Below are positions 15,438 through 61,167 of a stretch of DNA of 64,000 nt, one piece after another. The stretch's first letter is position 1, and each line of letters begins with the position of its first letter. The position numbers and the translations under genes were made by a program. The notes beneath the pieces were generated by a model. That model worked only from the letters and a program-made list of their open reading frames with translations. It ran no database searches and was not told where the DNA came from. The stretch is from Amphibalanus amphitrite (Eukaryota; Arthropoda; Thecostraca; Balanomorpha; Balanidae), in NCBI RefSeq assembly GCF_019059575.1, contig NW_024882865.1, positions 62,001-126,000 on the forward strand, in the 5' to 3' direction.

Positions 15438-16916
15438 ATGAGCATAGTCCCAGCAGTCTGCATAGCTGTCTATATGCCCGCGTGCCATGCAATGCATTCA
15501 ACAAAAGTGGGCGAAAGAGATGTCCCAACTGCCAGCTAACCACACCGGCACGACTGAGACCCATCAAAAAGACTGCCCGTTCCGGACGGTGACGCAGTCC
15601 ACTAGGAATAATGCAGCCATTTCCAGTGAAGAGTTGGAACTCCTCACTCGCTTGCATCATTCAAAAACACGGCGAGTGGAGCTGAAGGTCACAGCCGTCA
15701 CGAGCCCGGCGCGTGACGACAGAGTCACGAACCGTCACGGAGGAGGAGCGGTGACGTGAACAGTCACGAACTCGTTACGGTCAGAAAGCGTGACACGTGC
15801 GAGCGTCGCCTGGTCCGCCGCTTTAGTCAGTCTGAAGAGTAGTGTTGTTGTTTTGTTTAGACCAAGGGCCAGCGTATAGCTGACAAATAAAGGTTGCAGA
15901 AAGCAAAGTACGCTCCCACGTTTGACATGTTGTCTGCAGAAGGCGCAGTTTTTGGCCACGGCATCATCAAATAGATCGTCCAAACCAATCCTTAACGCCA
16001 GAGGCCAATCAGCCCATGACTATGAAATCGGCCTCACCCTAAGCCGTCGCCTCAGGTATGAAAATATCGCGTCTTTGAAGACATCGCGCCACTCGTCTGC
16101 AGCCAGACAACAGATACACTGCTATTACAGGGCTGATTAGGGTGTGGTTAGTCAATAAAGACCGACTTTCTCACGGCCGTGGGATAATCTATGCGAGCTG
16201 GGACCGGGTTGCATGCATTAGCTGCATGAGCCGACGGGGCGTGTACCCTGAAATATTCAGTGACCACAGCGCACAGACCTCCACCTGAAGACGTGGCATG
16301 CGGACGATGGGCTAGACGTCTCTCCAGCTGTATAAATACTTCATAGTTCGCATAATGTGACAAGGTTTACACAAATGGCACAAATTAATGCCTTTCCTAA
16401 GCAGCGTGACGCGGCTGTGCGAGACGCCTAAAAACGAATATTCAATGTCAGTCATATAAGTTCACCAGAGTGTCAAAAAAAGTCACTGTCAAGTGTCATC
16501 CCAGAGTGCGAATGCCATCTCACGAAACCGCGACGTCTCGAAATGAACACCAAACCTGCAAGCAAGCACCCAACGTGACCACGACCACCACACTAACCCC
16601 AGTTGCAGCCACTCAAGCGGAGAGATCACTCTCACAGAGAAGCCTAAACTCCTCCCAACCGCTGCCGACTTCCATAGCAACACCAAGCAGACTCAGCCGC
16701 ATGGCCAAGCGACGGTGCCGCCGCTTTGTGAAATCCATAGCCATGTAGCCTGACACCCGGGTGGTGTGTGGCGTGGGTGTTTAGCGCCGTGTAGACATGC
16801 GGAGAAGCGTGGGCGGGTGACTGAGAGACTAAGGAAGAGACCGGAGAAGAGACAGAGACACCGCTAGCTCCGACCGGCAGACGGACGAGGTGTGGGCGGG
16901 AGTGGCGGGAGAGAGA
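15438..16916. other. Gene-free stretch
   Basis: No recognisable exon or RNA gene was seen on either strand. Several TGACGTGA/GTCACG-type short motifs cluster at 15690-15800. Confidence 0.4.
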
Positions 16917-17332
<416 letters not shown>

Positions 17333-17339
17333 ATAGGGT

Positions 17340-20300
17340 GACTCGACCGACATCTGGGTCAGTGTTGGCAAAAACGGGGGTGTGGGCGGGTGATTTAGCA
17401 CCTCAGACATCACACACCCATCACTGGAAGGTATCATAGGCGGACACTGGCTATCAGTCTCCGTTATCACAAACGAGCCTTTATTGATCGACAGGAAATC
17501 AATCAACTGTCCGGGAGGCATCAACGATTTATAAAATGACCTATGGCGGATCTGTCATGTGATTAAAGCAAATACTGGCATTTAATATTTGAACGTCTAT
17601 GCGAACAGCACACAACAAGCAAATCTAAATATACACTGAGACGTCAGCAGAAGAAAGTCGAGCGAAATGTCAGCAAGCAGTGTTCACCTGCGTCCTGCAA
17701 CACCCACTGTCTGGAATTCAGCACAAGAGGTCTAGGAGACCAATACAGTTGGACACTCATGTCAACCATAGTTAGCCTGATCAAAGCCTCGAGGCCCAGC
17801 TTCTACTCCGGCATGCCGACAGCCGCCGCCATAACAATAGGCTGAAATGCAGTCGCCTCCACAGCAGCTGGCCTCGTCACTGATTGAGAAGGACAGCGTC
17901 TGCAAGTCACACCACACGACCGGGGCTGCCCAGCCTGAGCATCACTCATATCTGCTGGACAGACAGGGCTAGTTGAGAAGGTAATGGCCAGACGGCGCTA
18001 GTTTAGGCAGTATGGGGAAGGGAGGGAGCCGACAGCGTCGTCGTAAGTCCTATAGAGACCGCCAAGAATAGCGTGGAAAAGGTTGTTTGAAAAGATAACA
18101 ATGACTTTCAAAATGCGCGTGGTGAAGATGTCGCATGAATGGAACGGACTTTCGACGCGGTTAGCTCAAGTTTTTTGCTGAACATGCGAGACACCCATTA
18201 TGCGCTGTTTTTGAAGCTTAAATCCAAACACTGTAATCGCTTACCGGTTGGATATGACAAATGGTATGGTAAACCATGTAACAACAGAGCACCGGCTCGC
18301 TTCGTCACCACTACGGCAGTCCTCCAGGCTAAGGTAGTGCGCCCCCGTCTGGGTTACCATAGCAACAAGATGACGCAGTGCTATGCCCGGCAGTAACCAA
18401 GGAGGTGGCTATTCGCTGCACCAAACAACGGAGGGTGCAAGGGGCGAGCCTCTGTGAGCTTTTAACACGAACAAACACAATACTTCAGCATGGCGCCACA
18501 CATAGCTTGTAGCTGGAATGGCTCTGGCCTTGAACCTCAATCGTTTGTGTTGTTAGGGGGCAGACGGTTTGTTCGGCGCCACGACAGGGGAATAGGTATG
18601 TGTCGTCTAGGGAAGGTGACAAGTGAAACATTCCAAGTGAGATATGTCAACGGTGTACAGAAATAATGGCTATTTAACGCCAAAAAAATGTGAATAACAG
18701 AACAGCCATTGTAAAAGGTTCATGTAAATCAACGTCAGGGAGAGGATTTATCCGATATGTTTAATTCCTCACTTTCACTGGACCCGCGACACCACCCTAC
18801 CGAAGCGTAGCTCAACACCGGCATACTTTCAGGCGCCTGGCCGGCGCCGGCAGAACCTTGACAAACTTTTTTTCGGCCAGTCCGGAGACGCATCTCCCGT
18901 TGGTATGGCCACCGACCGCTCAATACTTACCGAGCTGAGATACGCTTTATTGCCTCTGACCGCTCAATACTGAGCTGAAATAGGCTATGGTCACCAACGG
19001 TTCAATCAGAGCCGAGACACCGTATCGATCTGGTGAATCAGCAGCTGACAGGCATCTGACCGGGCGGGCCCGCTGACCGGGGACCAGACGCCAGCGGGGG
19101 TGCCAGGTCACCAGCTTAGGCCACCAGGGGGCGGGCGGCGCAGTCGCTGGCCAGGCATGACATCATAGACCGACCATTGTTAGTATGGGTGAAAGCTTTT
19201 AGCTAAATACTCTCGGGAAGAAACGATATAAACCCCTGGTTAAAAGTACGGGGCAACAGCATCCCACACATCACTAAGGACATTTTCTCTAATCACGCCA
19301 TCAGAACACGTGGGCGGGATATCTGGCAGTCCGGAGTGGTTATCTCTAGATTGAGGCTATCACGGGCCAAAACAAACGAGTTGTGTTGCAAACATGCGGC
19401 TGGCGGAGAGCGGTGGACATCACCGGATCTGGGGTCGGTGTGGCCCCGCCATGAAGGGGACCGTCTGGTTTACAATGGTAATGAATAACAAACAGCACAA
19501 TGACTGTCTAACATTAATTGTCTGCGAGGCATAAATGGAGAATATAAGAGCAATTGTGCCAACAGCAACGATATTATGAGGAAATCCCGGCATTCGTATA
19601 CATACAGGCAAAGCTATCGAGAGTTACGTTCAAATGAGTGAGACAGCGCCATCCGAATTACAATTAGAACGAAACTGTTCCCAAATGTCGATTTGTCCCA
19701 TACATCAATTAGAAGTTGTAAAAATTAGCTGCACGGGCAGGCTCCAAGCTGTAAAAACCAGCCATCCGCAGTTCGTTATCACCCAATAGCCACAAAAAGC
19801 ATAGAAACTGCTAATAAATATGCCACTACAAACAAAGTTATACAATCTAAGACCTTTACTCGATGGCTCAAACAGCTGCGCCAAGTGCAAGCTGGCCTGA
19901 AGTTTGCTAGGCCAATGCGCTTTTAGCTGTGACAGCGACCCGGCGAAAAATAATGTAACAAAACAAACAACGATACACCTGTCATCTTCCCTGAAGAGTG
20001 GGATTGTGGAATAGATATACTCCTTGAGCAAGCGACTAAGCGGCCAAAGCGCCGTCAAAATGTCTATGACGGGCACTTTGCTAGTGGCAGATAGTAGCGG
20101 ATCAACATACGCTGACAACTAGGTAGGACAACCGGACAAATAATTTTCTAGCTCTTCGAAATGAAAGGAGTGGTCATAAACGTAACCAAGAGTTCTATCA
20201 ACCGATCAATGGTTCCCATCGACCGCCAATGTCCTGGGACACCAACCACATGCAATAAGTCTTCCACCATAGCCCAGTCAGGGAAAGCAGCTTCTCAGTA

Positions 20301-20500: not shown

Positions 20501-20705
20501 ACTTTAACTTTTCCTCAATAGATAGCAGGTATCTTTCCCAAAGCGACTTTACGAAGTCCCGATATGAGGTCTGTACCTGTTTCTGTGACCAACACAGTAC
20601 AAGCACAGACACTGGACCTCACTCCCCTCACGTGAGTCCCCACCCCACCCATCACCTCCACCACCAGCCCGCAACCCTCTCTCCACATGCAGCGTCTGTA
20701 CTCAC

Positions 20706-23700
20706 ATGTCTGTGTCGTCGGCGACGGCGTGTCTCTCTCCACGCGTCCTCCTCCCGTCAGCATCCGGTTCACCTCTCGCTCAATGTCGAACCCGGAGTCC
20801 GACGGCTCGACGGCGCCTCCAGACGCCGCCGAGACGTTGAACATGTCCGGTGTTATCTGACCCTGACTCGGACTGTCAAAGTCCACCCGCGGCACGTCTC
20901 CTCCCAGACTCTCGTCCACGAGCAGCGAGGCGCTGGCGCTGGCACAGCCACCGCCGGCCGCGATGGAAGGGTCCGTGCTACGGATGGAGCCCGGCGCGCG
21001 GCCGCTGGGGGTGGCCGCCGCAGCGTCTGTGGTGTCGACTGGACCTCCCAGACGCAGCACTACCACAGAGATGTTGTCGGAGGAGCGCAGGTCGACGGCC
21101 GTGCGCACCAGACGCTCGGCCAGACCGGCGAAATCGTCTGACGGGGAGGGAGCAATAAGGTCAGAAGAATGGTGTAGCGTGTCTAACTAAGCAGGCATGG
21201 AGAGTTGACAGGCTGACTGTAAGGTATGGCAAGAAGTGTGAAGTGGCGAGTGTGGCGTGGCGTAAAGATGACTCCTAAGCTTAATTTATGTTACTCAGCT
21301 GATTGCGCCATTAGCCATCCGATAAAAAAGTGAAACGCAATAATTTTCTTCTCGTTATGTTCTCACCACATGCACTCAGTTCTTCCCCTCCCTAACCTTA
21401 CACCTCGTCCCATTACGCCCGCGCCCTTTTCTTCCTTCCCCCATCCCTCTCATTCTCCATCCTCCTCTTCCTCAGCAACCCCCTCCTTCCCCCATCCATC
21501 CCTCTTTTTCTCCCCTCCTCTCCCCGTTCGTACTTGGGTTCTCCTCCATGTCGTTCATGACCATCCGCACCGTCTGCTCAGCATCGATCACGTCGAAGAA
21601 ACCGTCGCAGGCCAGCAATAGGAAGTCCTCGGTGCCATCCAGCTCCACAGTCGTTACGTCCGGCCGGTCGCTCACGAACGGACGAAAGTTTTCGTCACCT
21701 GACGACGGATAGAAGAGATGATTATGGAGATGACGAACACTGAATACGATGTCGAACGGCAGGTGAGAAGCGAATGGCAGGGACGGAATGGAACGCGAAT
21801 ATGTAAAGGAGGCAAGAGAGAAAGAGAGAAAGACAAAGATTGCTGGAAAAGAGAGTGATGAGAGGGAGAAGAAAAGGGAGAGTGAGAGAAAGAGGGAGAG
21901 ACAAAAGGAGCGGGAGAGGAAATGAGGAAAAGAGACAAAACAAGATGGAAGACACGAAATTATTTCCACTGATGAAAAAACAATGAACGGAACGCATTCA
22001 TAACATTGGGTTGGTCGCAAGGCAGGAGGAAGGATTAACCGCCCAACAAAAAGGTCCGCACGTAAAATACATGCCGCTCAAAGTACTTTTTAATCACCAG
22101 ACGTCAATCGATAATGGCATGATGTTGACACCCCCAACACGCCGCCACATCGCATTCCTGTCCATCACGTCTGGCACCCGCGGGCCGGATCTCCCGCGAC
22201 AGACAGAGGCGGTAGCAGCCGCCCGGTGACCGCATATAAACAAACAAAACGCCTACTAATGCCGGCGCGGCCGCCGCAGCTATCCGCCACTGAACTCATG
22301 TGTGCTGACGGGGATGATTGCAACTCGGCCGGCCGCAAAGGCGGCGAATACCGTGCCAGTCATGAGCTGAGGCTGGAGTCAATGGATGATGTGGCATGGT
22401 GGTGTAACCGAGTGGCTGTTGAGGGGACCTTGGAAGAAGATTGATGAATATAATCGTCAGGGGCTGTTTGCACTATCTCCGGTGTGCCGGAGGTGAAGGA
22501 ATGTCCACCCCCTTCCCATTCCCACACTTGGAGTTCGGTAGCAGACCGTTCATTCCTTTATCAATGAACTATCAAACGTAAGACATCCGACCTTATCCAG
22601 TGAGCGGCAAAGCCAAAACTCTCGACATGGCCGTTTGAATAGCAGCCGCGGAGCCATGACCAGAACCAAAGCTGACTAAAATTCCAGCACTGGTTTACAT
22701 CAGCAAACAGTTCATTTCTACTACCTCACAGACGCGTCCCAAGCCGGTAAATTACGTAATGCCACGCTCAGTTGATTTTCCGGCGTGATTCACTTGCCCA
22801 CTTCACGGAGGACTGCCAGCGTGGCCACGGGAGCCGTGCAGCCTTCGGCGCCGCTTGCATCGACGCCGGTCACCGCCCTTTGTGTCGCAACACTCCAACG
22901 AGGCATTCGTTCTTATATGGGGCGTATGCTCCAAATTGCATCCGTAAGCTATGTCTTTGCCGTAGTGTGGTATTCGCCATTACGGTAAAATGGAAATGGA
23001 AACGGAAGTGGAGGAAAAAGCAACATAAAGTGACGTAAAAAATTGTTGTGAATCGTTACTGCATGCTGTCCCCAATAAGGTATAACGCATCTTTTCCGTC
23101 ACACAAGTTGTTTATTAGGACTTTAGGGCGCGTCGACTGCGGTGGTCATTTTGCGCCCATTGTTGAACATGTGGCACAACATCCGTAAGAGTTGAGCGCG
23201 ACATCACGACACTATAAAGCCGTTACAATCGATAAGTGCAATAATTGAACTAACTTAATTTATCATTCGCCAAAGTAAGCCATTGTCAGTTATTAACGAC
23301 ATATAACTGGAAAATGCATTAGGCATCACCAATAATTGACAAAACCGAGAAAAAAATGAACAGAGCAACCAACACACATCAAGCCGAAATGTTGCGTATC
23401 AACTACCTACGATATGTTATATTATGTCAGATACATACGGCTATACATCTTTAGCAGCAAAGCGTCGACTACCGACATGAATTACAGATGTTAAACTCAC
23501 CGAGGGCTCGTGACACCGACAGAACGCCGTTGACCCGATAGGAACCGTAAAAATTGACAAAGCCGCCCAGCTGCTCAATGCGCGCCTTTTCGTCCTGAAA
23601 AAGGGAAAGCAGTTGTAGATGGACTGTCAGAGAGAAACAGGGAACGCATGGGTGGAAAACTACCTATAACTGATCAAAGTGCAGGCAAGAAGAAAGTCAA

Positions 23701-49861: not shown

Positions 49862-50640
49862 TCCGGCCCGGGCGGGTCTGGCGGCTGTGGATGGCACCGG
49901 CCTCATCCCTATCGCGTTGTTGAGGAGTGTACCTGGCAAAGCACAGTGGAACGGGCAGCCTCATTGGTCGACCGCTAGCCAATCAAAACCATCGCACTTT
50001 TGAACCGCCTAAGGGCCTAATGGCGTCAGGATCCCTGTAGCACTTAATCGCACTTACAAGCAGTCGCACTTCTGAATCTGTAGCACTCGTGTAGCATTTG
50101 CACTAATGAACTGTCGCATATTTGATATACACCCAACAAAATTTCAATGCGCCATATTTTGTCTAAAATGCGTTATAAATATATACAAAAGTCCAGATGT
50201 TTTCAGCTGATATATCTGAACTAGGATGTTTATTATTTCGAAATCGAAATGATTATCATTTCGTACATTAAAAGTTTCTGCATTTATAAAAAAAAGCTGA
50301 CTATAACTAACGCAAGTTATATTTCAATTTGATAATCTAAGTCAATAAAAAATTAATCAAAATGCATTCTACGCTTGAACAGCAGACGTCTTTAGATGAC
50401 CTTGGACTTGTGCTTGGATTTTTTGCATGTTGTTGATATTGTTAAAGTGTGACATTTCGCAATTTCCGCGCAGCGTATTCCAGGGTATTTCGTTGGGATT
50501 GCTATTCATGTTTATAACATTTTGCGATTTTAAGGCGTGGTAACAGCCCGAGCCGTTCAGAAGTTATTGGCCTGCGCCTAACTTGAACTAGGGGCTAGGG
50601 TAGGTATATTGCTGGGTATATTGTTCCATAACGCGACGTT
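49862..50640. other. No gene or element recognised
   Basis: The first part is GC-rich, the remainder AT-rich. No exon or repeat boundary could be supported. Confidence 0.4.
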
Positions 50641-50784
50641 GTCCGTTGACGCAAGGCCCTATATACCCGTTGACGTGAATGGCGGCGGGAGGGCGGGGGC
50701 CGTCTTACGTCGGACCCGATTTTCAAATTGAAAAGCGTTCAATAACCCCGGATAACTGTCTTCAGAAATTTTTGATAAAAGGTG

Positions 50785-51671
50785 CCTCGCCCGTATAGGA
50801 GGGGGGGGGGTCGAACGGACCCCCTCGGTTTTTCGCGAATAACTCGCGTAAAAAGCGGTCGATCGCGACGAAACTTTCAGTACCCTCGTGTTAATCAATT
50901 TTACACCTACCCTGAAATTTTCATGACCCTGACCCTAATGACCTTTGACCTGTGACCTACTTTTCGAGACCATGTTTGGCCGGAATCACGATTCGGCGTA
51001 TGTCGGCTCGCATTAGCCGCGCGTTAAGCGTTTGCAGTCTTTTCGTGGTTTTAAGCGTTCAAACATGGGATATGATGTTGCTCCCATGCATTAGGGTGGG
51101 TGTCAAGGTCACCGGAAGGTCAGGTCAGGTCATTGACCTTTGATGACCTCGGTTCACTTTTTCGAGTTTTACATGTTTCTAGGCCAGTTTTTCGAGCTGA
51201 ATTCGAATTTAGCAATCATATGAACATTTACGAAGTAGCTTTGATACCTTCGTAACATGTTACGAAGCTGTCAGAGGCGGTTGCCACCTACTACGAATAC
51301 CCTTACTGATTGACCTGACCTGACCTGACCCGACCTGGCCTAAATGCATGAAGACATCATCTGTGATCAAAACTAACATGATATTCGTGATCAGCACCCC
51401 GAAAACCCCCATAGCAGCCACGCTTTACGACTTTCTAACAGGTCCCGATTTTCCATACTTTTGGGTCATTGACCTGACCTGGAAGGTCAACCGATGACCT
51501 AGGACCTTAAAATTGGGTATCATCGGCTTCCTCTCGTCACGGGTAACATGCTCGTTTTTCCGCGAAGCTCTAGCTCGATCAGGGGCGAAACGGCAAGGGG
51601 GGGTCCAAGTCAACGGACCCCCCCCCCCCCTTATACGTTCGCGGCTGGAAAAACACCAATACGGGCGAGGG
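50785..51671. mobile_element. TTAA element, CCCTCGCCCGTAT family, inverted copy
   Basis: Inverted copy of 43577-44455. The right end ATACGGGCGAGGG is intact with TTAA at 51672-51675. The left end CCTCGCCCGTATAGG is present but its TTAA is eroded. Another short TTAA-bounded segment (51676-51813) follows directly. Confidence 0.82.
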
Positions 51672-52137
51672 TTAAACTTTAAACTTATCCAGACCAGCCA
51701 AAGGTACTGAAAGTTTCGTGTCGGACTCGATGTTCGATACAGAAAGCGTTTTGGAATATCGCAGGAAAACGAGACCCCCCCCCCCCCCCCACAGTCAATG
51801 AGTCATCCGTGGGTTAATAATTGATAAGCTCTTATAGCGTAGAGCGCTCAACATCTTCAGCTTCAGCGCAGCTTCTGACTTCTGAGTATGTTTTCTAAGT
51901 ACCTATGCGGACAGCGGTTCAGTCCTATCAGCCCTCCATGGTTGGTTTATTAGAAGGATTTAGTCGGCATTTAATTATGCACCTCAGTTTAAATTCCGTA
52001 AAAAAATGTCGACACATGCACAGAAGTGACTTCAAGCTCTTATTTCATTTCAGCAACATGAATATCTTTTTCTTATCTCGTGTTCGTGAGACTGAATAGA
52101 AGTGACTTCTTGCTCATTTTTAACTTGATGCCTGCGA

Positions 52138-55100
52138 ATGGAGTATGACGACCTTGACGAGCCGGCGGATGAGTTTGTATCTAAAACGTTCCATGTGGGA
52201 TGCTTCAACGGACATGAAAGGACTGGTTATGCCCGAGGTTCTCCCATACACACTGCGCCTACTGTCAGCACCGGCTCGTTCTTCCAACCGAGATTAACCA
52301 CGTTTGCGACGAGTTTTAACATAAGTGGTGACCGGTGTAGAGAACAAAGCGTGGGAAAGCCACAACCACAGCAGCCTTCACCTGAGAGCATATCCTTACT
52401 GTATGGATTGCCTGTCACGGTACCAATAAAATTGGAAGATGGCCATGCTCATGAAACTCTAGAAGATGATCTTGATGATCTGGTCGAGCCGTATACCGAG
52501 AGGCGCCATGGTTTTCAGGTGCGAGATGACCTCGACGAGCCGGTGGCTCAGTCATCTTGGCAAAGGACTCGGCTCCAAATGGTGGATGATCTTGATGAAC
52601 CTGATGAATGCGCACAGGCGTTTGCAACGGAATGTCGCGACGATCTCCACGAGCCTGCAGATCTGCCGCTCCCTGCGCCTGTGGCATCTGTGCATGACTT
52701 GCGAGATGATCTGGATGAACCAGCTCCTCGCCCTCTACCGGAAACAGTGGAGCACAATAATGCCCTTTTTGATGACCTGGAGGAGCCCGCTGCATCACCA
52801 TGCCGTGCTCGACAAGATAAGAGAAGCTCTCGCGTAGAGCTACGCGATGACTTAGCGGATCCCGATGTCGATGATCATGCGTCACCTCAGAGGAGCACCG
52901 GTAGCAAACTCGACCATCTTTATGATGACCTGGATGAGGTGCTGGTCGATGAACTCATATCAGAAGTTAGCGACCTCATGCTGCAAAGTCATGGTTTTGT
53001 ACACGAAGGCGCAGAAACGTCATGCCGTTTTAGTCGAGAGTCTACAGCTTCTTTCACTGATGACATCAGCCGTCACTCCTTAGTTCGTCAAGGTACCCAA
53101 TCTTCACTCCATGCAGCGCAAGGCAGTAAAACGCCCTCTACCTCCCAAGGAGATGTCGCCAAGCGCTTGTGTTTCGAAGAAAGCGAACACCGAATGAAAG
53201 GGACACATGACGCTGAAACGCAGAACACCGCAAAGAGGCATCGACGGGAATGCCAACAAACTGCAGGTCGTCAAGAAACAGGAAAACGCTCTGTTGAAAC
53301 TGTGCAAGGCAACGTCACACGGACTTCGTCTCCTACTATCGCCAGTCAATCATCTATGCCAGCAGTATCAGATGCCGAAGGCCTACGTCATGCTGATGCT
53401 GCGCCAAAGACTGCCGCAGTATCCATCAGAGGAGTTGAAGAGCATGCTGGTCTCCCGATAGCCAATGTTTCAGGCAACGAGTCGGAAGTGAACACTCCAA
53501 CCGCAAACCCTCGCTGTATCGATGAACCAACTGCCAGATCGATCTCATGCGAAGCGAACGTTGGCACTGAAGCCGTGAGTCAGGACGCTCCAGCATCTGG
53601 CAAACATGATACATCGTATCCCAAAGATACGTCACGACCTACATCTCAGCAGTCATCACTTCTGTTGGACATTTCCCAGTCTCCAGTCAGGTGGACGTCT
53701 CTCCCGCTGCAACAGTCCGAGGTTAGCGTTCCGCCCCCGCTGCCTACATCTCCGCCATTGCTGCGGCCCGGAACTACCGACCCTTTGTCTTCTGCACCAC
53801 CTATGCAAGTTGATGCTGCTGCACCAGTACAACCCCTGGAAACCAGTTCTCAAACATCAGCTGGAATACCAATGAGCTGTAGTCAGCACAAGTTCACCGG
53901 TTCAGTAACTTCCACGCCGCCTACCGAGGACAACACTCCAGCACACGTCTCAAAAGGCGCTTCTGAAAACCTACCTGCGCCCTCTGCGGCCAGCACATCA
54001 GCCGCCAAACCACCGAGCAAGTCCCGGGCTGCCCGTCCTGGTGCTGGGAGCCGTGACCCGCGCCGACCTGTCCAGACGGAGACGGTTCTGGCGCGGATTG
54101 ACGCTCTGCTCGCCGCAGTTGCCACCTGTCGGGAACGCGGCGAAACTCCCGAGCTGCTGCTGCCAGCCAAGACCAGATGGCGGGACCTTCAACTCTGCAC
54201 CGAGTGAGTACTTTGCGTAACTTCTGAGAGACGCTTTGGTGCCTTTGTGACTTTGCCATACCGTCGGTGTCTATAATCTATATGTAAGATGCGTCGGGTA
54301 CACAGTGTACGTCGGGTACACTGTGTACCCGACGTCCGCCGAATCGGTTTACGTCTTACCTTTTATCTGATCTTTTGTCTTTTCGAATGATCTATACTCA
54401 TTACTCACACGATTTATTATCCGTAATTCCATCACACCGTCTACCCAAACACTTCCCTGAGCTACCCCGTGCCCTCTGACCGACAGTGCCGGTCATCTCG
54501 TGGTGACCGATGAGACGCCCCGCGCCGAGGTGCGGGTCCGCAGCGAGAGCCGGCTCAACATGATGGTGCTCCTGCTGCAGAAGATCAGACACCTCGTCTC
54601 CACCAACACTCACTCAACCAAGAGGTCGGTACGAGTGTAATGGATGCGCTGATTTTCCGCTAAAAGAACGTGCGTAACGCCAGACGATAGGGAAATGTCT
54701 TAGTATATTTCAAACTGACTGTTCCAAATGCTATTTCCCATTACGCGATGTAAACACGTTTTCTTTACTCTACAATGGGCACCATTAAAGAGACCCAACC
54801 AGTGTGTTTTGCTCCTAAAAACGATAGTTGTCTCAATCATTAGCACCTCGTTTCATCGTGTGTTTCAAGATTCTCGTTTATATATCATACAAAGCGGCTG
54901 AGCACTGGTTATGACCCAATAATTAATCGCCGTTCCTCATTCGACAGGGACATCTACTACCAAGAAGTATCGCTGTTCGGCAGCCAACGTGCCGTGGACG
55001 CCCTGCTGGATGACGTCACTGACCTGTTGGCCATTCCGCGCGAGAGCTCGCACGTGCGCGCCACCTCCAAGGGCCTGGTGGCCGGCCAGCTGGTGCTGCG

Positions 55101-58100
55101 CTGCGGAGATGTGCTCATGGACTGCTCGGCGGCCAAACACGGTGGGTTTGCTCGGGAAAGGCGTGTTTAGAGGCGCGAGCTGGGCCATGTGTTGGATGTA
55201 GGTTTGCGCGGGAGATGAGTGTTAGATGCGCGAGCTTGACCATACATTGGATATCGATAATTGGTTTGGTGTAATACCCATGGGACTTCTCTCCAGGGCT
55301 GCTGGTGCCGGAGAACGTGCCGCACGTGCAGCTGGTGAGCTCCTCGGCACGCTTCATCCTGGTAGTGGAGAAGGACGCCACGTTCCAGAAGATCCTGGAC
55401 AGCGGTGTGCTGGACCATCTGCCGCCCGGGATCGTCATCACGGTCAGTTACGCCGGACAGTTTCAAAGCTTTCAAAGTTGAAATGCAGTTATCAATTTTA
55501 TAAGTGTAAATTATCGGTGCGGCCTTCTGTCGCTACCCAAAGTTGATTGTGTACCATCTCTATTCATCACGGCGTCACCGTTCGGCAGGGTAAGGGTTTC
55601 CCGGACCTCAACACACGCCTGCTGCTGCGCATGCTGACCTCCCGGCTGGCCGTGCCGGCCATGGCGCTTCTTGACGCCGACCCTCACGGCCTCGAGATCT
55701 TCTTCGTCTACAAGTACGGCTCCCTGGTAAGGCTCGTTTGCTGGTAATATGACATACGCTTTGCTGGAATGCATACTTAGGCTTTTATTTCCCTTAAGCC
55801 TGAAACAGACTCTTTCCGCAGTCAGGAAATCGCATGCGAGAGCTTATTCAAATACATGGAAGCACGCTCGCACCAATCGCACGCACCTTCCGCAAGCGAT
55901 TGATGCGAGAAGAATTGCAATGTATTTGAATAGGCTCTCGCATGTGATTTCCTGAACGCGTAAAGAGTCTGTTTCAGCCTTTAGCCGTGCTCGATATTTT
56001 TGTCGTACGGATAATTCGGTCGTTTGAAAGCAAGTGCTGAACAATGATTGAGGTTCGTACTTCGTGATACGCATTATTGATCGTTTACTTGGTGCTGCAG
56101 CAATTCGTGACATCTCTATTTATTATGCTGTTTCCCAAAAAGTTCTTACACACCCGTTGCTGAGTACCTACTTTCTTTAGCTTCGTCCCACTCAAACACT
56201 GAGCTTTATCCATGTGTGGGCAGGCTCGTGCCCGGGAGTCGGACCGACTCACCACACCGGGCCTGATCTGGCTCGGAGTCCGGCCCACGGAGGTACTGCA
56301 CCTGGATATACCCCGTTCAGGTGAGGCAAAGAGCGCCAGGGGGCGAAGAGCGCCTGCAGTGGGCGGTGAGCCGGACAGGAGGTGTGTTTGAGGGGTGCGA
56401 CTACGGGAAGCGGTTGAAGTTCTGTGGAGAAAGAGAGGCCAAGTGGGTGCCGCCTCACATTCCCCTCCGTCACTTTCACGCTCGTTCTAGGCGTTGTCTG
56501 TTGTGTTGTATTCTTAGAACTGACGTTCACATTGTGTCCTTGTAGATTCCGTACCCTTGCAAAAGGTTTAATAAACCCCAAGCGTCTAATTCAAGCTATA
56601 CTAAGGCTCCACTTCGACGCAGGAGGGGAGGGGGGGGGGATTTCTCTAATGCATGGTAACCGATAACTCGCTCTTGACGTTCGCTCGGTGCCGCTGTGCG
56701 TGCGTGATTTACGAGGTGTTCACGTTCACAGTGTGGTGTCACGGCGGTTCTTTAGTCATGCATTAGGTGACTGGGAACAGGTTATTACATCAGATGCTCA
56801 GCGATACTGGTGGCGGGTTTTTTATCACAGCGGCCCGATCGAGCCCGCACTGAGTTATGTCTGAGATATTGAATAGTTTGCCTACCTAATCACGCATCAC
56901 GAAAGATCAAAATATCTTGTTGCTATTTGGCTTGATTTGAATTGCCATATATTGTAGCCTGATCTCAGATGTTTCGTCGGCATCTTTTTGCTGGCAAAGT
57001 TGTAGAAGTTCACCCAAAATAATGTTTTTTCATCAATTATCCGATATTGGATTTGGATGCCTATTGAAAATCATGTGATAGTATCGGCGAAATACCTATA
57101 AAGTCCAGCCTATCTATTGCACCGATCGAACCCCGGCCCCGCATCGGCTTGATCTCCGACAGAGAGAATGCTCGCAATTTCTACGACGCCGTAGTAAAAA
57201 GTGGCCTGGATCATGTCGGTCATACCTGGGCGTACGACTGCGTCGCAGTGGGTGCCCTCTTTTGTAGCCGGCTGGACTGAGTGTTCGATCGGATTGGCTA
57301 AGTATGGGTCATTTACATATAGTTAGGTTAGGGTGGACTCATTTTATATCATAATTGTGAGTCAGAGACAGAGTTATTGCGGAACTAAAAATGGTTGGAT
57401 ATTTTTACAAATGCGGACAGGTTTGATGGAGCTGTTGATAATCATGTGTTATTAATCTGAGTACCTAGTAGATGAGATCACGTGGGTATTTTTGCTTATG
57501 CATTATGCATTCATTTACTTCAGATATTCCGTAGGTACGACGTGCAATATCCCGTATTGACGTGCAATATGAAACGTCTAAATTCCCTTTCTTTTATTTC
57601 CTGGGGAGAAGCGACATCCAGCAAAAGCGTTCTCTCTTGAAAGACCACTTCGTGACAAGGCTTCTGTTTACAGATGCTTTTGGTGCTTTACATAGTTCAT
57701 ACCGCCATTGCTCCCTTCTATTGTGCTCTCTTGTGTCTCCTATGTGACCGTTCCGTCCCTTTCCCCAGCTCTCCTGCCTCTAACCGCCGCCGACCGCAGC
57801 AAGGCCCGGTGCCTCCTCTCTCGGCCGTACGTGAAACACAACCGCTTCTGGCAGCGACAGGTCAGTCCGCACTCCGCGCTCGGCGCCGGGCTATTGGCTT
57901 GAGCGAGTCAGAGGTGGCCAACTCGCCAGGTTTTGGGTGACACGAATAGGTCGCTGGCTTGATAGTTTGCAGTGGCACGAAGAGGCCGATGACCCGTTGG
58001 GCCATACGACCCTCAAAGGTCACTGCTGTGGAACGGGCTGGCATACAAGGTCGCTGATGTTCTGGAACGGAATGGAACGCAATTGCTCATTTTGTCCCTA

Positions 58101-59915
58101 TTGATAAGATGGCACTACATAACTCATATATCTCCCATTTCCACGGCAAATCACATTTGTATTGCTCGATTCAAGAGCTGGGCTGCAGTTTTTTTTGGGG
58201 GGAGGGGGTACCGTAAACGAGGGTGACTTTGCCATGTTTTCAACTTTAGACGCCTGTATTCTTTAAGCTTGTTAACTTATTGGGATGACTCTATGTTCAA
58301 AACACGGATGAAGATTAGCTCTTTGGGTTTTGCTACTATCGTATTTATATCTTGCCTAAAAATATAAATTTTTAAGCAAAATGAGTCGTGGCAAAGTTTA
58401 ACTGAAAAAGGGGTGACTTTGCCACTATGCTAAATAATTTTTTTTAACGCTAGCAAATACTTTTCAAGCATTTTTGTTTCATTGTATGGGGAAAGGCAAC
58501 CATCTTTAATTGTTTAATAGGAAAAAATAAAGCAATTCGATATTTTTTTGCTCTGAGACGATGTACAAAAAAGGAGGGATACCTTACTTTTTGTAATACA
58601 TTATATTTGTTGAAAATAACTGAGATTTGATCGTAAATAGAAACTGAAAATGGTTCAGAATAGATAAAGCAAAGATATTATTGTACCGGTAGTCTAGGAC
58701 CTTGCCGCGTTTTTCCAGCGGCATTAAGAGGAACAGAAAGAGGACGTTCTTGCGGGAACTTACCGACATCCTTCTTATCAGCGTTTTGATCTATAAAATT
58801 ATACAGATTTCTTCAGCCAGTCTCATTGGCAAACTCAGGAGTTGTAGATGATCATGGCCGTGCTAAAAAAAAAAAAAAAATGGGCCCAGCTTCATCCATT
58901 TTTTTTTATTTTGGTAACCTTTGCCTTTTTATACTCCCACTGTGCATTACTGTGTTAAATTTTAACATATAAACTTTTACATTTAAAAAACCAGTTTGGA
59001 GGTCAAAATGATGCTACATTTAAAACTTCTTTTGAATTGCATCGGATAAGTATTTCATTTTTGCATTGATAACATGGTGGCAAGGTCACCCCATGTGGCC
59101 TGCAATTCACTTGGAAGAATCGCCACCAAAAATTTTAGCTAAATGAAATGACAAATGCCAGTTTTGTTGGATATGCTAACTTAACAGCCTTGTCATGATC
59201 AACCATACCAAGTTTCAGCATCACAGTTGGTCTAGAACATGGTTAGATAAAAAAAAGTCCGGACCTCTTCAAATTTGACCATTTCAATGACTCCAATAAA
59301 ATGGAACCCAGTTCCGTATTTAGTGGCTACTTATCTCTCAGTGTTGGTTATGTTGGAAGGCCCATCAATTATCTTTCGTTTGTGCATACAAACTTATTAC
59401 ATTATTCGTAAAATATCACTGGAGATCACCCTCAAACATTTGTTGAGAAGCATGGCAAAGTCACCCCCGTTTACGGTATTTCTTTTTTTTTCGTCCCTTT
59501 GCTTGAAAATAAAATAAGAATAAAGCGTATGCTAGTTACATCTACCCATACGCGCGACTGACTTAGTCAGAAGCCGTCAGTCAATCAAATGCAGTCACCC
59601 GTCATATCTATCTAGTGTAATCGGTATAACTTTATTCAGTCGGTTTTAAATTACACACCCGAGAGCAGCGGATTATCGGCGGCCCTTGGGCATCGTCTCG
59701 CTCCCCAGATCCGCGAGATCCTGGCGTCGGGTCGGAAGGCAGAGATCCAATGTCTGAGCGCGATCCACCCCACCTTCCTGACGGATCTCTACCTGCCGAG
59801 CAAGATCCAGGAGTGCCTGGCGGGTGGTCTGGGAGTCTCGAACGGACAGGATGTCGTTCCCCGGGATCGTACTGAGCCGTGTGAGTCAGTTCAGGCTCTG
59901 GCCGCTGTCGAGTAA
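52138..59915 (+). CDS. SPO11: SPO11 meiotic recombinase with long acidic N-terminal extension
   Basis: Relative of topoisomerase VI subunit A that makes meiotic DNA double-strand breaks through a tyrosine-DNA link. Exons: 52138-54203, 54487-54624, 54948-55141, 55297-55442, 55589-55726, 56224-56320, 57769-57860, 59709-59915. Phases agree and the 3078-nt CDS gives 1025 residues; typical SPO11 has about 330-400. The core shows RDIYYQE with catalytic Tyr likely Y739, then TSKGLVAGQL, the Toprim glutamate in VVEKDATF (E824), GKGFPDLNTR, LLDADPHGLEI (D877, D879), and LSRPYV. The family N terminus (VLARIDALL...) begins near residue 650 in exon 1. Before it lie nine DDLDEP-like motifs (residues 4 to about 267) and a Ser/Thr/Pro/Gln-rich low-complexity stretch with basic AKRHRRE near 365. 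An in-frame TGA at 52126 precedes the ATG. After YLPSK about 40 extra residues follow; a donor at 59881 offers an alternative end. Confidence 0.94.
54292..54334. repeat. 18-bp perfect inverted repeat in SPO11 intron 1
   Basis: CGTCGGGTACACAGTGTA (54292-54309) is exactly inverted at 54317-54334 with spacer CGTCGGG, which itself repeats the arm start. It could extrude or fold in the pre-mRNA; function unknown. Confidence 0.92.
55797..55980. mobile_element. Palindromic MITE with TTA target duplication, copy 2
   Basis: Second copy of the element at 28687-28868, with the same ends (AGCCTGAAACAGACTCT) and palindromic core. TTA flanks at 55794-55796 and 55981-55983. It lies in the SPO11 intron between exons 5 and 6. 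Confidence 0.88.
56321..57768. other. SPO11 intron 6, no insertion recognised
   Basis: A 1.45-kb intron with a G-run near 56625 and otherwise unremarkable sequence. No second gene was seen in it. Confidence 0.5.
58211..59476. mobile_element. TA-flanked element with CCGTAAACG ends, 1266 bp
   Basis: CCGTAAACGAGGGTGACTTT at 58211 is inverted at the end (AAAGTCACCCCCGTTTACGG to 59476), with one or two mismatches over about 26 bp. TA flanks at 58209-58210 and 59477-59478. Internal GGTGACTTTGCC motifs recur (58412, and inverted near 59082). No transposase is recognised. It sits in the last SPO11 intron. Confidence 0.8.
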
Positions 59916-60573
59916 CCAGAGAGGTTTGTCGAAGGCCACCGTCACAGGCTCAGACGCACGCTGTGTAACGTTGTTCACGAGGAAGGTTGGATTCTGCAAA
60001 GCCAAAGAAGACCAGGGAAGACGCAGGAGTGTGAATTCGAGTTGGTTGAGCACTGAGCATGGCTTTCGTTGGACGTCGATTGTTAGGTGTGAGCTGCTGT
60101 CTTTCTACCGAATTACCGATCAGATGAACATGTTTGATAACTGTGTCGATCTGTCATATACTGTCAACGAATTGTGTTCAGAGAAGTCGCGCTCATTGGA
60201 AAGGTAAACTGAAGTTTGTGAGGGATCTATGCTTGTTAAGAATCACCGGCATATAACATATTTGTGCCGGCGTTTTAATTTAATTCGCTTCCTCTTGTAA
60301 TCATAGCTGTTGCCAGTAATCCATGATCATGTTTCATCGTCAACTTCAGTTTATTCTGATCTCTATCATTTTATATTCTCAGAGGTTCGTGCAACATCAT
60401 ATATCGGTGCAATGTTTCTGGACGCTGTCGGTGCATTATTTGTACCGATTAGTGATGTTTCCGTTGCCGTTTCATTTGGTCTCTCACTCCATAGTTCATA
60501 GTTGCCTGTATCTCTAAACATGTTCGTCTTTCAAAAGTCATCAGGAGCTATAAATGTCTTTCTGTAAAGTCGA
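59916..60573. other. Downstream of SPO11, no gene supported
   Basis: It should include the SPO11 3'UTR. An open frame continues in another register at 59824-60207, but it overlaps the SPO11 final exon out of frame and matches nothing. Confidence 0.4.
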
Positions 60574-60599
60574 ATGAGGTTTTCGAGTCCTAGATATGT

Positions 60600-61167
60600 A
60601 TTTTTATTTATTCACATGTCCCGTTATTTATTCGAATGCCCGGCTCACCGCAGGGCATTCGCTGTCGAGTGGCAGACGGCCGCTGAGAAGTACGACCGGT
60701 CTCGCGCTCACGCAACTGAGTACGTACGTGATCATTACAATAGTACTGCCAAGGCTCTCCCCGCCGTGCGCATCGGCACAACCGTCGATGTGCAGGACTC
60801 GCGTACGGGCCAGTGGGACAGGACGGGCATCGTGGTCGGCGTGGGTGATCATCGTGATTATCTCGTAAAGTTGCCCAGTGGTCGTGTATTGTGGCGTAAC
60901 CGGCGATTTTTGCGCCCCCATCGTCCGCTGCTACCTTGTTCGTTTCGCCCATGTAGCGTTCCGTCGCCGCCTGCACGTGATAGTTCGCCCGCGGAACGTG
61001 ACGACTCTCGGCTCGTCCGATTCCGCCTCGATGGTGTTGATGCGCCCTCTGTGGCGCCGTGTGCTCCCACTGTCACCTGTGAGCCTGCTCCATTGCGTCG
61101 CAGTGAACGTGCGCGCCGTGCTCCAAGTCGCTTGGTTATTAATCCGCGGTTGAAGTCCTATGATTAA
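60600..61167 (+). pseudogene. Ty3/gypsy retrotransposon integrase C-terminal fragment
   Basis: The frame to the TAA at 61165 reads AFAVEWQTAAEKYDRSRA, then LPAVRIGTTVDVQDSRTGQWDR, VVGVGDHRDYLVKLPSGRVLWRNRRFLRP and a basic RRSERARRAPSRL tail. This is the pattern of the C-terminal end of gypsy-type Pol (integrase GPY/F-like region). Reverse transcriptase, RNase H and the integrase core are missing upstream, so the copy is 5'-truncated. Confidence 0.75.

Follow-up and report, generated by a model that had tools for sequence, protein, structure and literature searches.

We found that the SPO11 gene of Amphibalanus amphitrite encodes an N-terminal extension of about 640 residues in which a short acidic motif, DDLx(E/D)P, is repeated nine times, and that a single exon carries this extension and the start of the conserved SPO11 sequence in one frame. 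SPO11 proteins usually have about 330-430 amino acids. The gene lies in a stretch of 64,000 nucleotides (G000:C1368:62001-126000), here called the window, and we searched the genome to which it belongs (807.55 Mb, 2644 contigs) for related sequences. We propose that the extension is a largely disordered tail carrying a putative multivalent docking motif for a partner in the meiotic break machinery, a reading to which we assign a probability of roughly one half.

The SPO11 gene and its first exon

A gene model built from the splice signals (GT/AG) and reading frame of the genomic DNA alone places SPO11 at window positions 52138-59915 on the forward strand, with eight exons and 1025 amino acids. 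The parts of the gene are as follows.

52138..54203, forward strand: exon 1, the extension of about 640 residues and the first conserved residues (open frame, GT donor, intact in the likely second allele)
54064..54203, forward strand: start of the conserved part of SPO11, from residue 643 on, within exon 1 (alignment to yeast Spo11, 8urq)
54487..54624, forward strand: exon 2 (splice model, second copy)
54948..55141, forward strand: exon 3, with RDIYY (splice model, 8urq alignment)
55297..55442, forward strand: exon 4, with VVEKD (splice model, 8urq alignment)
55589..55726, forward strand: exon 5, with DADPHG (splice model, 8urq alignment)
56224..56320, forward strand: exon 6 (splice model, second copy)
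57769..57860, forward strand: exon 7 (splice model, second copy)
59709..59915, forward strand: exon 8, with the stop codon (splice model, second copy)

Exon 1 holds 688 codons in frame with the rest of the gene and lies in a stop-to-stop frame of 692 codons (52129-54207); the frequency of stop codons in the window gives an open run of that length a chance of ~1e-13. An in-frame TGA lies 9 nt before the ATG at 52138, and the second copy of the gene, on contig C67, has an in-frame TGA at an equal distance. The exon closes at a GT donor at 54203 and not at 54110, the end of the range first noted. Pfam detected TP6A_N at residues 711-768 (2.6e-17, 62.8 bits against a cut-off of 26) and TOP6A-Spo11_Toprim at residues 819-990 (2e-50, 171.5 bits against a cut-off of 24.1), and a phmmer search of the PDB aligned the protein with topoisomerase VI A subunits and with yeast Spo11 (8urq), to which RDIYY, VVEKD and DADPHG all align. 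We take the second tyrosine of RDIYY (54958-54960) to be the catalytic one. Judged by its domains, aligned residues and open frame, the gene is an intact member of the SPO11/Top6A family. A role for acidic residues of the Toprim domain, with which VVEKD and DADPHG may be compared, is described in excerpts of PMC11746154. Because the alignment to yeast Spo11 begins at residue 643, within exon 1, the extension spans about 640 residues; both this length and the presence of extension and conserved start in a single exon agree with what had been predicted.

The window has other features. An exon-like ORF at 21472-22077 (reverse strand) matches protein phosphatase 2C (PF00481, 2.8e-10), and an ORF at 20515-21186 on the same strand reads as its continuation, with no Pfam match of its own. 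A long simple repeat at 16800-17440 is open on both strands. The 199-aa ORF at 60568-61167 (forward strand) has no Pfam match and looks by eye like the tail of a retroelement polyprotein; a further ten long ORFs in the window likewise lack a Pfam match.

The repeated motif and the composition of the tail

The nine motif copies start at residues 4, 113, 130, 150, 168, 190, 212, 237 and 263 and are spaced by 17-26 residues within the array, which bears out the nine repeats first noticed in this sequence. Eight of the nine fit DDLx[ED]P, and the ninth reads DDLDEV. The second copy sits in DDLDDLVEP, bringing the number of DDL in the extension to ten. All were located by translation.

52147..52164, forward strand: motif 1, DDLDEP, residue 4
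52465..52491, forward strand: motif 2, DDLDDLVEP, residues 110-118
52525..52542, forward strand: motif 3, DDLDEP, residue 130
52585..52602, forward strand: motif 4, DDLDEP, residue 150
52639..52656, forward strand: motif 5, DDLHEP, residue 168
52705..52722, forward strand: motif 6, DDLDEP, residue 190
52771..52788, forward strand: motif 7, DDLEEP, residue 212
52846..52863, forward strand: motif 8, DDLADP, residue 237
52924..52941, forward strand: motif 9, DDLDEV, residue 263

Shuffling the composition gave a mean of 0.005 matches to DDLx[ED]P (maximum 1 in 5000) against the 8 observed, and a mean of 0.35 DDL (maximum 4) against 10; a six-frame translation of the window contains no further DDLx[ED]P. 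Position -2 of the motif is hydrophobic in seven of nine copies (P = 0.001, uncorrected for the 24 offsets shown) and position -1 is Arg or aromatic in seven of nine, and no comparable agreement among copies appeared at the remaining offsets.

Among the nine copies pS is 0.95 (saturated) and pN is 0.12, compared with a pN of 0.66-0.74 at four flank offsets (copy 1 omitted), so that the motif has been retained while the linkers diverged; the spacers have no mutual similarity. The same codon is used in 71 of the 174 pairs that share an amino acid, against 73.7 +/- 8.1 expected if codons were independent and drawn from the rest of exon 1. Codon choice among the copies thus looks independent, which argues that the peptide, and not a recent DNA duplication, keeps them alike: the copies would be either old, with their peptide kept by selection, or independently arisen. 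We rejected a tandem DNA repeat on the same codon identity and because neither of the two arrays that Tandem Repeats Finder reported in 50000-60500 lies in exon 1.

Genome-wide DNA patterns for DDL[DE]EP, which leave aside DDLHEP, DDLVEP, DDLADP and DDLDEV, matched 19 places with a CTN leucine and 1 with a TTR leucine. Ten of these 20 places are in the two SPO11 copies, two are in an Asp-rich ORF, seven are isolated copies, mostly within short frames, and one is on contig C1996. The reversed control of the CTN pattern was more frequent (64 places versus 19). At the DNA level, then, the genome shows no enrichment for the pattern itself, and its clustering in SPO11 is the exceptional feature. 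The Asp-rich ORF (C442; L003:4626-5645) has two DDLDEP copies 7 residues apart, and its second half looks by eye like a bromodomain protein. In the open-access literature no protein paper was found by title for DDLDEP, DDLEEP, DDLHEP, DDLDDLVEP, EDLDEP, DDLDEV or DDLADP, and on the basis of that literature a DDLxEP docking motif has apparently not been described before. Possible look-alikes are the WDR5-, CTF4- and RPA-binding motifs.

The array is strongly acidic, with a net charge of -37 in residues 101-290 as opposed to +5 in residues 601-650 and +6 in residues 689-985. Two further features of the tail are the following.

52906..52992, forward strand: possible helix over and after the last motif, residues 257-285 (single-sequence AlphaFold2, low confidence)
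53008..54057, forward strand: Ser/Ala/Thr/Pro-rich stretch, residues 291-640 (composition)

Charge-hydropathy classed residues 101-290, 291-450 and 601-650 as disordered and residues 1-100 and 451-600 as ordered. AlphaFold2, run on residues 1-290 as a single sequence and hence weak evidence, gave a mean pLDDT of 41.8, with possible helices at 105-120 (over motif 2) and at 257-285 (motif 9 and after). The tail is probably largely disordered. It has no match in Pfam or the PDB, and a search for a donor gene, with 26 genome candidates scored, returned only the two SPO11 copies at E <= 1. Its GC3 is 0.44, against 0.80 for the core, 0.89 for REC114 and 0.74 for one other ORF, which may reflect a different history or expression; together with the missing matches, and judged by these three comparators, this fits a lineage-specific addition. 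Among viral contigs, 6 stretches fit a pattern for SPO11 relatives and 0 were confirmed.

A second copy and selection on the extension

A pattern search of the genome found five motifs with identical spacing on the reverse strand of contig C67. The SPO11 copy there has all eight exons, 1025 amino acids and an intact frame, and its exon 1 (C67:70566-72631) pairs with window 52138-54203. Frame breaks in a close relative had been named beforehand as evidence against the extension; we looked for them in this copy and there were none. Every motif and its spacing are also intact, so that repeat number and spacing are conserved, here between two copies of one genome.

We regard the C67 copy as most probably the other allele (haplotype) of SPO11, because the core matches at just these two places in the genome, three further locus pairs sharing a motif string are 90-96% alike in six of seven blocks (76% in the seventh), a C-type lectin match lies ~37 kb from SPO11 in agreeing orientation on both contigs (by coordinates only) and REC114 is likewise present twice. 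A fourth locus pair, not predicted to match, gave no match. In single adults of Balanus improvisus, alleles of one gene differ by 2.6-3.9%, with dS of 0.06-0.12 (PMC8270832, excerpts). Ks between our two copies falls within that range for the extension (0.093) but exceeds it for the SPO11 core (0.166), and for this reason the second copy could, less probably, be a recent segmental duplication.

The two copies differ in other ways. About 190 bp at window 51886-52074, ending ~63 bp before the ATG, is missing from the C67 copy, so the proximal upstream regions differ. Synonymous divergence climbs along the gene from 0.015 at the 5' end to 0.13-0.30 from residue 521 on; recombination or conversion between haplotypes may have left a boundary there. 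At C67:69061-69870 (reverse strand) exons 3, 4 and 5 each lie within an open frame of 362 aa, and introns 3 and 4 of that copy seem to be stop-free; in the window copy the frames around these exons are 108, 68 and 66 aa. For the C-type lectin, 150 matches were scored of 499 candidates in G000, and several of them score equally on a pair of contigs.

All estimates of selection compare two copies from one genome and so have limited power. Over residues 1-640 Ks was 0.093, Ka 0.041 and dN/dS 0.445 (Fisher p = 1.6e-4), and omitting the most scrambled part (521-565) left dN/dS at 0.41 (p = 4e-4). The ratio was 0.075 in residues 641-688, 0.028 in the core (689-985) and 0.216 in the C-tail (986-1025). 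The comparison of the copies has thus shown purifying selection on the extension, weaker than that on the core. The motifs (57 residues, 137 nonsynonymous sites) had 0 of the 58 nonsynonymous changes in the extension (p = 0.005 versus the rest), and they appear to be kept by selection. Within residues 1-290 there were 12 changes, 0 of them in motifs, and the difference between motif and linker was not significant (Fisher p = 0.14); power is lower there because synonymous divergence is small (Ks 0.015 over the first 100 residues and 0.055 over 101-290). Exon 1 differs between the copies by two indels, both of 3 nt, whereas the seven introns have 39 gaps, of which 32 are not multiples of three, a count affected by the poor alignment of introns 1 and 5 (64-72% identity). 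This keeping of the frame through the tail argues that the tail is translated into SPO11.

Docking, its alternatives and known systems

Docking is the most economical reading, because a short motif has been kept although the spacers around it are dissimilar and, for the most part, apparently disordered. Each DDLxEP would be a docking site of the short linear kind, and nine of them on one tether would make SPO11 a multivalent ligand that could be concentrated, or link several SPO11 complexes, within break-licensing assemblies. The tail would emerge on the auxiliary-protein side of SPO11, since the N terminus of yeast Spo11 lies against Rec102 and Rec104. Our candidate partner, a guess, is REC114, because it is encoded in the genome and because the first 110 residues of the REC114-like ORF (199 codons, 55.7 bits to PF15165) carry a net charge of +6 against the -37 of the array. 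This ORF, which seems to be a single exon, lies at L011:1120-1716 and L012:1165-1761, the two copies differing by 17 nt and 8 aa. REC114 is only a candidate because none of the nine motif copies has the Trp that two known REC114 ligands need; the motif, by its sequence, is a poor fit to those ligands. Searches for MEI4 (PF13971) and DUF4554 (PF15091) gave no match in the genome and were uninformative, the control genomes being equally blank. Of what was first suggested for this region, the single gene, the single frame and the constraint on the repeated motif have held up, and docking to a partner remains inferred. An axis protein, the other kind of partner first suggested, is neither favoured nor disfavoured by these results.

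The tail could instead be a tolerated, fast-evolving disordered addition, in which nothing but acidity and flexibility counts and the motif is incidental, produced by composition or by an old duplication, with no specific partner. The much higher dN/dS of the extension than of the core, its want of relatives in the genome, Pfam or the PDB, its unusual GC3 and the lack of a significant rate difference between motifs and linkers in residues 1-290 all suit this view; yet composition does not yield eight exact copies, and the codons are randomised while the peptide stays identical and the linkers have nothing in common. We consider it unlikely, if the most serious of the rivals. The charge contrast with the basic segments would also allow an intramolecular brake, the acidic array mimicking DNA and covering the surface with which SPO11 binds DNA until something displaces it, but charge alone would not call for Leu and Pro at exact positions, and we judge a brake distinctly improbable.

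It is a little less probable again that the tail sets the amount or location of SPO11, through nuclear export, decay or kinase feedback, and does not dock to the break machinery. An export-like LISEVSDLML lies at residues 273-282, and SQ/TQ occurs 9 times in residues 291-640 against 5.1 expected from shuffles (p = 0.04); however, ~0.7 export-like patterns are expected per shuffled extension, neither SQ/TQ (p = 0.19) nor S/T-P is enriched over the whole extension relative to shuffles, and neither kind of pattern explains the DDLxEP array. The poorest prospect is a main SPO11 product without the tail, with transcription or translation starting inside exon 1, for instance at Met 579, or the 5' part belonging to another transcript. 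Met at residues 148, 281, 353, 407, 556 and 579 would permit shorter products, and the upstream indel of ~190 bp and a GC3 shift near residue 640-660 could be read the same way. Against this, both copies retain frame and motifs with exon 1 indels of 3 nt solely, dN/dS stays under 1 along the extension, the frame enters the conserved part without a splice site, and residue 579 is Val in the C67 copy.

Returning to the docking tail, we put forward only tentatively the larger idea that this is an animal SPO11 with an acquired multivalent recruitment tail, in which the catalytic subunit, and not a bridging protein, would nucleate or count break-machinery assemblies through nine copies of an undescribed motif. 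How SPO11 is recruited and restrained beyond a few model species is largely an open question. Nine near-identical, apparently selected motifs are ready bait for naming a partner, and varying their number could reveal whether break number depends on multivalency. The open-access literature yielded nothing on multivalent short linear motifs of meiotic SPO11, and for an arthropod SPO11 N-terminal extension it gave only YTHDC2 in mice.

The protein shares TP6A_N, Toprim, RDIYY, VVEKD and DADPHG with eukaryotic SPO11 and archaeal topoisomerase VI subunit A, from which it differs by the ~640 additional N-terminal residues with their repeated motif. In Daphnia, an inventory of meiosis genes lists one SPO11 homolog (PMC2680839, excerpts). 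Another meiotic protein likewise has a fast-evolving disordered region in one long first exon, with no motif array in its excerpted description. In mouse, TOPOVIBL and ANKRD31 are bound by the REC114 PH domain through short peptides, both of which need a Trp for binding; like DDLxEP as we read it, these peptides are short, come from break-machinery proteins and dock to a single domain, whereas here the motif is acidic, present in nine copies and free of Trp (PMC9671922, excerpts). The closest parallel in position is yeast Spo11, whose N-terminal extension likewise precedes the winged-helix domain near auxiliary proteins: it lies in contact with Rec102 and Rec104, and recombination is impaired when its residues are substituted, but it comprises 25 helical residues, with no motif array in the excerpted account, compared with ~640 here (PMC11746154).
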